Assembly (NCBI GenBank): GCA_027366525.1
Contig: DAHXKG010000005.1
Span: 62,001-126,000, forward strand
DNA from: a candidate division FCPU426 bacterium
GTDB taxonomy: Bacteria > Oederibacteriota > Muellerivitia > Muellerivitales > DAHXKG01
DNA: 64,000 bases
Direction of reading: 5' to 3'
The stretch's first letter is position 1. Every line of letters begins with the position of its first letter. The translations under genes and the position numbers were made by a program. Positions 59,267-63,767 of this stretch are shown in pieces. The notes under the pieces were generated by a model. It was not told the origin of the DNA. It searched no databases and was given only the letters and a program-made list of their open reading frames with translations.

Positions 59267-61048
59267 TCAGATTCTGGAATGACTGGTTCGAAATTTTCCA
59301 GGTGATGTTTTGAAATTTTTTTTAAATAGTTGAATAAAATAAGAATAGGAGTGATAACCACATTGGACTCCAATTTGCCGAATGGGCAAGCTGCTGGTTT
59401 GTAACAACCGTTTAGATTCGTTTAAACGTTGATTTTGAATATATCCTTCAAAGGTAAAGCCGGTGAGCTTCTTAAAACCGAGGCTAAACGATGATGACGA
59501 TAAACCAATACTTTTGGCTACTTCTTTTAATCGGAGTGGTTTTGAAAAATTTTCATCTATCATTTTTTTTATGTCATCTATAATTAACGTTTTTTTCAGA
59601 ATAGAAGGTTTCAATAATAAACTGGTAAGTTGATCAAAAGTTTCATTGAAAGTATGAACCATGTTATTAGCGGTTAATGAATTTTCTAATTTTTTTCTAA
59701 ATTGATCTAACCAGTGCGTTAAGTCAATGGAATGCATTTCAAAATTATTTTTGACGGCTTGAACAATAAATAAAAGACTGTAATTTAAATGTAAATATAA
59801 CTCTTCCGGTTGATTGTTGGACAATCGAAGTACGGTATCTAAAAAACGGTCCTTGAGGATTTGAAGATCATATAATGTTCCCGATGCCAAAGAGGATTGG
59901 ATCAAGACTAAAAACTCCTGAAATTCCTGCACGGTGTTTTTGTAGATAACGGTTGGAGCCGGCGAATAAAATATTATTTTTTTCCCCGAATTCCTTCCAT
60001 AATGAAGTGCCTGAATTGACTGATGATAGGAATTGTTTAGTGATTCTCCAGGGGCAACAGTTTCTCCAACACCAACGACAACGGGACAACCTAGTTCCTT
60101 GGAAGCAAAATCATGAATTTTTTCGGCCAGTGTTCCAATTTGACTTCTTTTTTGTAACCGAGTGCAATGGGCGGGCGTGGAGGTCACAAATACTCCGCCA
60201 TAATTATTGAGCGCGCCTCCCACAGTTTCAGGTAATGTTTGTGCAAATTGGAAACATTCTTTTTGAAATGAGTGAATTAAGAGCATTTTTTCGATGGGAT
60301 TTGACTTTTTTTCAAGCTGATTTGGAACAACCGTTATAACCGTGGTCGGAATTCGAGTAATTCGAAGTTCTTCTTGAATCCAGGACAGATTTTCAATGCC
60401 ACGTTCCCAAATAGGCGTCGATTCATCCGCGGTGATTCCAAGGGCCCAATTAAGCCAGTATAAGTGGGGTGTTTTTTTTGAAATGACTTGAATCAATAAA
60501 TCATGGAGTCGTTGTTTGATGATATGTGGATGAGTATTATCACCAAGTACAAGTGCGAATAACTCTAGTGACTCTTTATAGGCGTCAAAAAGTGGCTCGG
60601 TTAAAATGGGTGTTGAGAGAATTGTCTGACAGAAAAACCTGAAGTTGTCGTGATGATCATCTACTTGATGGTACCCTGTGAAATTCGTCCATGCATTTTG
60701 GAGGTCTGAAAAGGAAAAATTTTTTTTTGAAAAAGTTCCACTTTGTAAATATCCTTGTAATTCGTTGTTATAAAAAATGGGGACAAATAAATCATGAAAT
60801 CCTAAAAAAGATCCACAAATCGTTTTTCTCTGATTTTTTGATTTTTGAAAACATTCTTTTACGAATTCTCGACGTTGGTGTATTTTGCCGTGTTGAAAAG
60901 TTAATTTAAATATCGGATTTGAATGTCGAATGCGATTGAGCGCCCACCAACCGGGATGGATGGATTTAGTCATTACAAAGCAACTGAGATTGATATAAAA
61001 ATTGATGATTGAATGAAACGGCTGAAAAGTCATGAAGGTTTCAAACAT
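59267..61048 (-). CDS. AraC-type regulator with PocR-like and degenerate GGDEF-like domains
   Basis: This protein of about 593 residues has a C-terminal AraC DNA-binding domain with two helix-turn-helix motifs (LRLKEVAKSIGLSSSSFSLGF and IRQIGVQCGYHSYSYFIQLF). The middle (about 215-370) resembles the degenerate GGDEF-like domain found in many AraC/CdaR regulators, with LLIHSFQKECFQFAQTL and GCPVVVGVGET, and no active-site GGDEF. The N-terminus, KTICGSFLGFHDLFVPIFYN then ELQGYLQSG, resembles a PocR sensory domain. The start is uncertain: ATG 61048 is chosen, with ATG 61033 or TTG 61090 possible. It lies downstream of the permease-PII gene in the same direction, after a 746-base gap. Confidence 0.8.
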   Translation of the reverse strand: MFETFMTFQPFHSIINFYINLSCFVMTKSIHPGWWALNRIRHSNPIFKLTFQHGKIHQRREFVKECFQKSKNQRKTICGSFLGFHDLFVPIFYNNELQGYLQSGTFSKKNFSFSDLQNAWTNFTGYHQVDDHHDNFRFFCQTILSTPILTEPLFDAYKESLELFALVLGDNTHPHIIKQRLHDLLIQVISKKTPHLYWLNWALGITADESTPIWERGIENLSWIQEELRITRIPTTVITVVPNQLEKKSNPIEKMLLIHSFQKECFQFAQTLPETVGGALNNYGGVFVTSTPAHCTRLQKRSQIGTLAEKIHDFASKELGCPVVVGVGETVAPGESLNNSYHQSIQALHYGRNSGKKIIFYSPAPTVIYKNTVQEFQEFLVLIQSSLASGTLYDLQILKDRFLDTVLRLSNNQPEELYLHLNYSLLFIVQAVKNNFEMHSIDLTHWLDQFRKKLENSLTANNMVHTFNETFDQLTSLLLKPSILKKTLIIDDIKKMIDENFSKPLRLKEVAKSIGLSSSSFSLGFKKLTGFTFEGYIQNQRLNESKRLLQTSSLPIRQIGVQCGYHSYSYFIQLFKKNFKTSPGKFRTSHSRI

Positions 61049-61794
61049 TGAATTTGAGTTGAGGCGCTGCTTTTTTTGTGATCTTGTCAACGTAGAAGAT
61101 CCTAGGTTATGGTTTCAATTTATAGAATCATGACTTGAGAATAATTTTTATGATAAAATTAAACAAATGAAATTATAGCATGGTTTATAAAATAATATAA
61201 TCAGGAAAGTGGTAACAGAGGACCACATTAGAATGGGTGGAAAATATTAGGGTAATATCAATGAATATCAGCGATTCATATCAAATGAAGTAATGTCCTA
61301 ATTCAGGAGCAAGAATGGGGCAGTGCTAAAGGAAGGATCGTAAAAATTTTGTTTTCTAGTAGAGCGTTTGTGTAATGCTAGTTTGTTTTAGTCACAGCAG
61401 CGGGTCAGAAAATGGCAAGTCCGCTAAGGTATTTTTCTTCAAATAATCTCAGCGCACTCCAGGGATTTCGTTCGGCCTAAAGGGGGAAAAAAATCAGAGG
61501 TTGACTGGTCATGAGAAATATTATACTGGGGTCCCAGTGGGCGACTAATCCATCTCAAATCAGGACTATATAATGATTTTCAGCTTGACGCGTTCTATTT
61601 CATATTTTTGAAATATCGCAGAATACCCAAGTGAATTTAAGTAATTTAAGAATTAATCAGGTTGTTATTTTGAAAATGCACATATCGATTGGTAATAGAG
61701 CAATTGAATCAAGTAGCCCTTAAATGAAATTAGAGGCCACCAAATTTAACGATGACCTCTAATTTAAAATATTAGTTAAATAAAATGTTGAATT
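61049..61794. other. Long intergenic region upstream of the AraC gene
   Basis: These 746 bases contain no convincing gene. The right end holds the permease-PII terminator hairpin, and the left part must contain the araC-type promoter. The stretch around 61320-61500 is locally more GC-rich than the flanks, with words such as GGGGCAGTGC and CAGCGGGTCAG, and could hold a leader or small RNA, though I see no clear fold. Confidence 0.4.
61727..61765 (-). terminator. Hairpin terminator of the permease-PII gene
   Basis: AAATTAGAGG (61727-61736) and CCTCTAATTT (61756-61765) form a perfect 10-bp stem with a 19-base loop, 30 bases after the stop of the minus-strand permease gene. On that strand a short T-containing stretch (CATTTAAGGG) follows, so the terminator is plausible but lacks a strong U-run. 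Confidence 0.6.
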
Positions 61795-63705
61795 CTAAAT
61801 TGCAGATACTCCGCTTTCGCCTGTTCGTACGCGAATAGTTTCTTCAGCATCAAATACAAATATCTTTCCATCACCAACGTTCCCGGTATTTAAAACATCC
61901 TGCATGACGTTCATGACATGAGGTACATCCCAATCATTTACGACGAGATCAACTCGAATTTTGGGAAGAAATTTAATTTTTTCTGGTACATCATCAGAAA
62001 CCTTCGAGCCCCGTTGACGACCAAATCCCTTAACTTCGGTAACAGTCATGCCTTGAATGAGTTTTTCTTGGTTGAGTGAAGCGACTAACTCATCCAAACT
62101 GTCTGGACGTATAATGGCCGAAATCATTTTCATTCCATAATTTCGTTTGACAGTTGTAATCAGCACATAAAGAAAGCTTATTAATGCCCATCCACCTGCA
62201 ATAAACAAACAGATTTTTAATTCTAATTTATTATCAGCAGTTCCAATGGCATTTAAGTAAATAATTCCTCCAGCCATTAACAAATTCAAAACAAGTCCGC
62301 CGAATGGAATGATAACATGTTTTACTACACTGAAATCATCTCGATTTTTAAATGCGATAAAAGTCCAGATACAAACTAAACCGTATAAAATAAATGTACC
62401 TAGATTTGATGCCAGTGTAATACCTGTTAAACCATCGACCGATTGAATTCCAATCGCTGCAATTATGCAAGAAATCACAACTAAGATCCAAATAGTTGTG
62501 TGAGGTGTCTTCTTTTCTTCATGGAGAAAACTTAAGAACGAAGGCAATTCACGGTCAGTTGCCAATCCATTGGTTACCCGTACAGCAGTATTTAAACAAC
62601 TCAAGGTAGTCCCGATAACAGCGATGGCTACGGTGAGAGCTATCGTTATCATTAATCCAAATCCCAGCCCTCCGAGTAATGAATTTCCTAAAAGTTTAGC
62701 CATATCACCAATAGGAGCACTCGAAATAGCCATGGCATTCATTCCAGTAACCACTTGAGTTGAAGCGGGAGTTTTGGATGTTGCGGCGACGGTTACCATC
62801 TCGGTAAGATGATTATTAACCATGAAATTAGCTGCAAAATATTCAAATAAATATGCAACGAGCCCCTGAACAATAAGCGCAATGATAATGGCTTTAGGTA
62901 TGTTTTTTCCTGGATCTTTAGTTTCAGCCGCTAAAGACGTGCAACTTTCAAATCCAACTAATATTAATATAGCTATAGTGGATTGAACAAGCACACCTTG
63001 AATTGAATGAAACTTAACGATATCAAAAGCGCCTGAGAAGGCCCAAGATTTTATATGCGATGGATTGAAAACACGATATAAAATGGCGAGTAAACTAAAA
63101 ACAGCAAGTGAGATCCATTGAATGATATTTATCCAGATATTAGTTAAAGTGGAACCGGTCACTCCTCGATAAGCAATATAGCCCACAATAAAGGCAAAGA
63201 GGGTTCCAATGATTGTTAAAGTGGTAGTAGAAAGAGTCGCACCAGTAAAAGACGTCCAAATGTAACCGATCATAGTTGCCATCATGGCAACCATAACGCC
63301 TGGATAGACCCAATAGAATAGATGGGCGGCCCAGCCTGTAGCTAATTTTGCAAACCGTGCAATCGATTCAGGGGCAGCTCGTTTTTTGGATTGCGAATCC
63401 AGAAAGGCCTTTTCCGCAAAATAACTACAACTCGCAAATCCAGCCTCAGGATAAATACGAGCTAATTCTGAATACGAAAGAGCGGTTAAAAAAGCTAAAA
63501 TCAACGCAACGAGAATGCCACCCCACATGTCGTTTGCGCATGAAGTGCCATTAGGCAAGGTTGCTGAAGCCTGTATTTGATAGGTAATCCATAAAAAAGC
63601 GCCTGGGGCAATGAGCGCCATGGCGTTCATGGAGGCTCCTAATAAGCCTAAAGTGGGTGTTATTTTTTTTTCGGATGGTGGTTCTTTAGAAGGTAATTTA
63701 CTCAT
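61795..63705 (-). CDS. APC-family amino acid permease fused to a C-terminal PII (GlnB-type) signalling domain
   Basis: The first 520 or so of 636 residues are an APC-superfamily permease with about 12-14 transmembrane helices, starting ITPTLGLLGASMNAMALIAPG and containing ALSYSELARIYPEAGF. After the last helix and a very short linker, residues 525-636 form a full 112-residue PII domain. It has GMTVTEVKGFGRQRG, FLPK, TGNVGDGKIFVF and IRVRTGESG. In GlnB numbering Gln39, Lys58, Lys90, Arg101 and Arg103 are conserved, with Asp for Glu62, so ATP and 2-oxoglutarate could bind. The T-loop (GSKVSDDVPEKIK) lacks both Tyr46 and Tyr51, so it cannot be uridylylated. The start ATG 63705 has GGAG upstream and fits the sigma-54 promoter; an ATG at 63735 would lie within a few bases of the transcription start. 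Confidence 0.92.
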   Translation of the reverse strand: MSKLPSKEPPSEKKITPTLGLLGASMNAMALIAPGAFLWITYQIQASATLPNGTSCANDMWGGILVALILAFLTALSYSELARIYPEAGFASCSYFAEKAFLDSQSKKRAAPESIARFAKLATGWAAHLFYWVYPGVMVAMMATMIGYIWTSFTGATLSTTTLTIIGTLFAFIVGYIAYRGVTGSTLTNIWINIIQWISLAVFSLLAILYRVFNPSHIKSWAFSGAFDIVKFHSIQGVLVQSTIAILILVGFESCTSLAAETKDPGKNIPKAIIIALIVQGLVAYLFEYFAANFMVNNHLTEMVTVAATSKTPASTQVVTGMNAMAISSAPIGDMAKLLGNSLLGGLGFGLMITIALTVAIAVIGTTLSCLNTAVRVTNGLATDRELPSFLSFLHEEKKTPHTTIWILVVISCIIAAIGIQSVDGLTGITLASNLGTFILYGLVCIWTFIAFKNRDDFSVVKHVIIPFGGLVLNLLMAGGIIYLNAIGTADNKLELKICLFIAGGWALISFLYVLITTVKRNYGMKMISAIIRPDSLDELVASLNQEKLIQGMTVTEVKGFGRQRGSKVSDDVPEKIKFLPKIRVDLVVNDWDVPHVMNVMQDVLNTGNVGDGKIFVFDAEETIRVRTGESGVSAI

Positions 63706-63750
63706 AACAGACTCCTTAAAGTTAAATTGAAGCAATTTCTACTTGATTTA

Positions 63751-63767
63751 AGCAAGGGTCATGCCAA
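63751..63767 (-). promoter_or_regulatory. Sigma-54 (RpoN) promoter of the permease-PII gene
   Basis: The minus strand reads TTGGCATGACCCTTGCT. Against the consensus YTGGCACGNNNNTTGCW only one position differs (C to T), and the invariant GG and GC are exactly 10 bases apart. The wider flanks (AACA before, TAA after) also fit the extended consensus. Transcription would begin near 63740, giving a leader of about 35 bases before ATG 63705. Confidence 0.85.

Follow-up and report, generated by a model that had tools for sequence, protein, structure and literature searches.

The window, the whole 64 kb stretch of DNA analysed here, carries on its minus strand a gene in which a permease and a signalling domain share one open reading frame. 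The features of the locus, with the basis of each assignment, are as follows.

61795..63705, minus strand: permease-PII fusion gene, 636 aa, ATG start (list of open reading frames and Pfam)
62161..63648, minus strand: APC permease part, residues 20-515, 12 transmembrane helices (Pfam AA_permease at 64-473; hydropathy and charge counts in 24 homologues)
62137..62238, minus strand: helix 12 and cytoplasmic stalk, residues 490-523 (AlphaFold2 model of 484-636, pLDDT 78-91 over most of the segment)
61798..62133, minus strand: PII (GlnB-type) domain, residues 525-636 (Pfam P-II; PDB sequence and fold matches)
61972..62010, minus strand: altered T-loop, residues 566-578, without Tyr46, Arg47 and Tyr51 (residue table of 24 fused and 41 free PII domains)
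61927..61932, minus strand: Trp592-Asp593 (E. coli positions 68-69), at the base of the PII fold (residue comparison)
63712..63717, minus strand: ribosome binding site AAGGAG (sequence)
63751..63766, minus strand: sigma-54 promoter-like site TGGCATGACCCTTGCT, 45 bases upstream of the fusion ATG (pattern scan)
59267..61090, minus strand: AraC-family regulator, on the same strand, downstream, 704 bases from the fusion (Pfam HTH_18)

The frame runs from the ATG at 63705 to a stop at 61795 and is uninterrupted by stop or frameshift; a plus-strand reading of the region was rejected because of the 45 stops there. The first 500 residues of the neighbouring AraC-family regulator are without any Pfam family match at E 0.001.

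An APC permease fused to a PII domain

The initial annotation had described a complete GlnB-type domain fused in frame to an APC permease, and profile searches bear out both halves of this description, each match lying above its cut-off. AA_permease matches residues 64-473 (52.4 bits, E 5e-14, cut-off 24.6), and among family members 8 of 11 match PF00324 and 7 of 11 match PF13520. A search of the C-terminal part with the P-II profile (PF00543) gives 78.6 bits (E 5e-22, cut-off 25) at residues 525-630, covering profile positions 1-102 of 102. Solved PII proteins align with the PII part over its full length (E down to 4e-26), and in an AlphaFold2 model of residues 484-636 (single chain, four sequences, overall pLDDT 74) the domain superposes on PII structures with a Foldseek E of about 1e-9, and on E. 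coli GlnB (5l9n) with a VIA Z of 13.2 and an rmsd of 3.9 over 90 residues. Hydropathy and the positive-inside charge pattern across 24 homologues give the permease 12 membrane helices with both termini cytoplasmic, in agreement with the helix order of a full-length AlphaFold2 model (three sequences) of low confidence (pLDDT 44), taken for helix order only. As both ends of the permease are cytoplasmic, the PII sensor is placed on the side that holds ATP and 2-oxoglutarate.

The same architecture is found in 24 proteins from at least 22 genomes in two phyla, the genome searches having covered the window's own phylum, Omnitrophota and Armatimonadota. Within the window's phylum, a whole-genome search with the window protein finds the fusion in 8 of 45 genomes, a ninth match (G018) being PII only; in Omnitrophota it is present in at least 14 of 384 genomes. 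Five of 43 Armatimonadota genomes carry the permease only, at 46-49% identity, the protein ending where PII would start. Aligning the 24 fused proteins of these 22 genomes shows a gap-free junction between helix 12 and PII strand 1 in every case. The frame is intact, and an assembly join is ruled out by homologues in 21 other genomes with identical architecture and the same gap-free junction. We therefore give an artefact of assembly or annotation next to no credence. In the plasmid collection no record covers the fusion, the matches being free PIIs only; the one longer match, from Paenibacillus, is the end of an amtB frame joined to the neighbouring PII gene.

A tree of the 24 fused and 41 free PII domains, with E. 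coli GlnB, separates all fused domains from the rest by a single branch (support 100/99), which is firm although the columns are few. In the permease tree, sequences from the window's phylum form one group with modest support (81/88), beside Omnitrophota sequences. The simplest account of these sequences would be a single fusion event, followed by descent or by transfer between the two phyla in either direction.

Nitrogen context of the fusion loci

Every open reading frame near the fusions was compared with reference proteins from the same loci. By this test, no more than about 8 kb separates the fusion, in 20 of 22 genomes, from at least one of the genes for free PII, AmtB, glutamate synthase or a type I or III glutamine synthetase. 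The free PII is often the very next gene, being adjacent or one gene away in most loci. This near-constant proximity to ammonium-assimilation genes suggests that amino-acid uptake is probably tuned directly by the nitrogen status of the cell, and, together with the sigma-54-like site, it supports the nitrogen role that the initial annotation had proposed. The two exceptions are G020, where the contig ends just behind the fusion gene, and the window's own genome, where the fusion gene stands alone beside the AraC-type regulator, apart from the amtB-PII pair. One of the Armatimonadota permeases lies between gltB and glnA; the other four are not so placed.

The sigma-54-like sequence TGGCATGACCCTTGCT, at 63766-63751, is the sole match to TGGCAYNNNNNTTGCW within the 64 kb, where 0.2 would be expected, and rpoN is found in the window's genome. 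Such sites, scanned at a threshold of at least 9 of 11 matches, occur upstream of the fusion gene in 10 of 21 regions, the window's among them, against 0.55 expected from shuffled sequence. Sigma-54 also serves regulons other than nitrogen. The putative site and the presence of rpoN nonetheless make nitrogen-type transcription control plausible in the window's species too, despite the absence of linked genes. In G041 a sigma-54 activator is encoded immediately upstream of the fusion, and several Omnitrophota clusters with the fusion carry a GAF-ANTAR protein of the antitermination type, which suggests control via transcription antitermination where the scan gives no sigma-54 site. The GAF-ANTAR regulators at L028:11221-12456 and L073:1834-2613 recur next to fusion-bearing nitrogen clusters.

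Some of the free PIIs in these genomes are themselves unusual. One in the window's genome (L034:7330-7680; G000:C2:40350-40667) is encoded, unusually for a PII, within a chemotaxis operon that also holds CheA and CheY/CheC/CheD/CheW-like genes. Directly behind two Omnitrophota fusions (L069:7381-7707 and L073:6315-6707) is a free PII from which most of the T-loop is deleted and which passes Pfam P-II. A PII paralogue next to amtB in G026 (L030:9514-9867), from which the GDGK loop and much of the conserved effector site are missing, is likely a degenerate PII.

Effector sites, T-loop and orientation of the PII domain

Residues are numbered here as in E. coli GlnB, the sequence of which was checked against 1pil. 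The five effector residues that the initial annotation listed as kept are all present in the window protein (Q39 = Q564, K58 = K582, K90 = K614, R101 = R625 and R103 = R627), but their retention is not a rule of the family. Nine positions (G37, G41, K58, G84, G87, D88, G89, K90 and R101) are invariant in the 24 fusions. R103 is kept in 23 and is Ser in one, and Q39 is kept in 17 and replaced by Thr in the remaining seven (G041 and the G026-G029 group), so that 2-oxoglutarate sensing may have been lost in part of the family. The dN/dS of the PII part, a rough figure since dS is high, is about 0.02-0.1 between close relatives and similar to that of the permease; judged by this, the PII domain is under purifying selection and is not decaying.

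The T-loop is altered. Arg47 is missing from all 24 fusions and present in 31 of 41 free PIIs, and no fusion has a T-loop Tyr, Tyr46 and Tyr51 included, against 35 of 41 free PIIs that have one; the loss of both tyrosines noted for the window protein thus extends to the whole fusion family. The fusion T-loops vary in length (11-14) and in sequence, and no common motif was found among the 24. Tyr51 by itself does not define the PII family, given that 23 of the 41 free PIIs also lack it; as a uridylylation site it is a feature of a proteobacterial PII subset only. The initial annotation had taken the missing tyrosines to mean regulation without covalent control, which proves uninformative. PF08335, the GlnD/GlnE domain, has no match in 20 of the 22 fusion-bearing genomes, the window's included, and the loss is for this reason no special evidence of escape from covalent control. 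In G026 PF08335 matches in two copies, the arrangement to be expected of GlnE. In an Omnitrophota genome, G093, the matches sit in two giant open frames of 7845 and 7071 residues (L081 and L083; G093:C43 and C58).

All 24 fusions have Trp68, which no aligned free PII has. With Asp69 it marks the turn between strand 3 and helix B, that is, the base of the PII fold, where a one-residue insertion before strand 2 of the fused PII also sits. In the AlphaFold2 model, helix 12 spans residues 490-523 and PII strand 1 begins at 525, a junction of about one residue. The PII fold is ferredoxin-like: strand 1 runs parallel to strand 2, from the end of which the T-loop emerges, and the N-terminus is therefore found at the other end. 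The short, stiff tether joins this N-terminus, so that the fused PII probably has its base turned to the membrane and its T-loops to the cytosol, opposite to the way GlnK sits on AmtB; this orientation is deduced from the fold topology together with the four-sequence, single-chain model of 484-636. Arg47 of GlnK is the residue that enters the AmtB pore, and its loss fits an orientation reversed relative to GlnK-AmtB.

Mechanism and relation to known systems

We favour, as an inference from these observations, an effector-driven coupling via helix 12 over plugging by the T-loop. A PII trimer would hold three permeases together from the cytoplasmic side, its base (the N-termini and Trp68-Asp69) lying against the membrane. 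ATP or ADP would bind between PII subunits, as would 2-oxoglutarate where Gln39 is kept, and the change in the domain would reach the transport core by way of its base and the uninterrupted helix 12, with uptake high at nitrogen shortage and falling at ample nitrogen. The cytosol-facing T-loops might serve as an effector lid, or be free for another partner. That the fusion transports an amino acid or other small nitrogen compound under nitrogen regulation, with its PII sensor in cis, is a proposition that we consider evenly balanced when it is counted jointly with this inverted-base, helix-12 mechanism. The mechanism itself, an inverted and covalently tethered PII trimer that sits base-down on an APC permease trimer, reads ATP, ADP and 2-oxoglutarate, gates via the continuous helix 12 and leaves its T-loops free as a second output, is put forward tentatively, as a possible rather than a probable account.

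Support for this coupling comes from the architecture and its conservation, the single PII clade, the invariant nucleotide-site residues and the low dN/dS; from the modelled continuity of helix 12 and strand 1, Trp68 at the base and the loss of Arg47 and the T-loop tyrosines; and from the nitrogen-gene linkage (20/22) and sigma-54-like sites (10/21). Against it stand the loss of Gln39 in 7 of 24 fusions, the pLDDT of 44 of the full-length model, and the position of the window's fusion away from the amtB-PII pair. An engineered direct fusion to the N-terminus of S. elongatus PII misfolded (PMC5431102), which indicates that N-terminal tethering is not trivially tolerated and likewise counts against the proposal.

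The main rival has PII working outwards: the permease would be an anchor or a transceptor, and the T-loops would bind or let go of a partner in the cytosol (the free PII of the adjacent gene, an enzyme or a regulator) according to substrate flux and nitrogen status. This suits T-loops that by topology should face the cytosol and a free PII gene next to the fusion or one gene off in most loci, and PII proteins are described in a 2023 review as binding transporters at the membrane in trans (PMC10710835). The variable T-loop length and sequence, with no conserved motif, speak against one conserved partner, and we see here a lesser, though real, possibility. If the PII domain were mainly a module for trimerisation or stability, its sensing reduced or lost, the Q39T change in seven fusions and R103S in one would be readily understood; known PIIs are trimers, which also speaks for such a module. 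The invariance of K58, K90, R101 and the GDGK loop across two phyla and the strong purifying selection make such a role unlikely. AmtB-like control, in which the tethered PII swings over and its T-loop blocks its own or a neighbouring permease, has precedents in the T-loop plug of GlnK-AmtB and the PII-like clamp of SbtB-SbtA on trimeric transporters, both treated in the same review (PMC10710835). With the N-terminal tether opposite the T-loop, a helix-strand junction that is near-continuous in the model, Arg47 lost throughout and the T-loop unconserved, we consider it very improbable; if the initial annotation meant gating by the T-loop in the manner of AmtB, that part of it is not upheld.

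In the open full-text literature we found no report of a PII-permease fusion; within that coverage the result is weak evidence of novelty, and it is quite possible that the architecture is already known at the level of domain databases. As far as its available text goes, the 2023 review gives PII transporter targets as separate partners only, with no fused case named, and PII control appears restricted to transporters able to be trimers (PMC10710835). With sensor and transporter in one chain, PII-transporter coupling becomes testable with a single purified protein. If the preferred reading is true, the fusion would represent an APC permease under PII control and a naturally occurring single-chain transporter responsive to adenylates and 2-oxoglutarate, as well as a means of regulating nitrogen uptake in two phyla that are known mostly from metagenomes. 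Few signal proteins are as widespread as PII, and here the sensor has probably been turned round.

Among solved structures, the APC amino acid transporter 5oqt/6f34 and the system xc- light chain 7ccs share the 12-helix topology and a weak profile similarity in the second half (E 7e-4 to 4e-7), but belong to a distant subfamily and are without a PII domain. LacS likewise combines a secondary transporter with a fused metabolic control domain, C-terminal and EIIA-Glc-like (PMC10710835); it is controlled through phosphorylation by HPr, and both its domain and its permease families are unrelated to those of the fusion. Control of transporters by PII in trans is well established (PMC10710835, PMC6603209), examples being the cyanobacterial SbtB-SbtA and PII-NrtABCD / UrtABCDE pairs; in these a PII-family protein also acts directly on a transporter, but in trans and on other transporter folds, SbtB being from the PII-like branch. 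The logic is shared by GlnK-AmtB and PII-Amt1, where PII controls a nitrogen transporter according to nitrogen status and where linkage to amtB and glutamine synthetase is likewise seen. In GlnK-AmtB, however, PII is not joined to the transporter and plugs the pore with its T-loop, whereas in the fusion PII is attached covalently through its N-terminus, with a T-loop expected to point to the cytosol and no Arg47, and the transporter belongs to the APC permeases.
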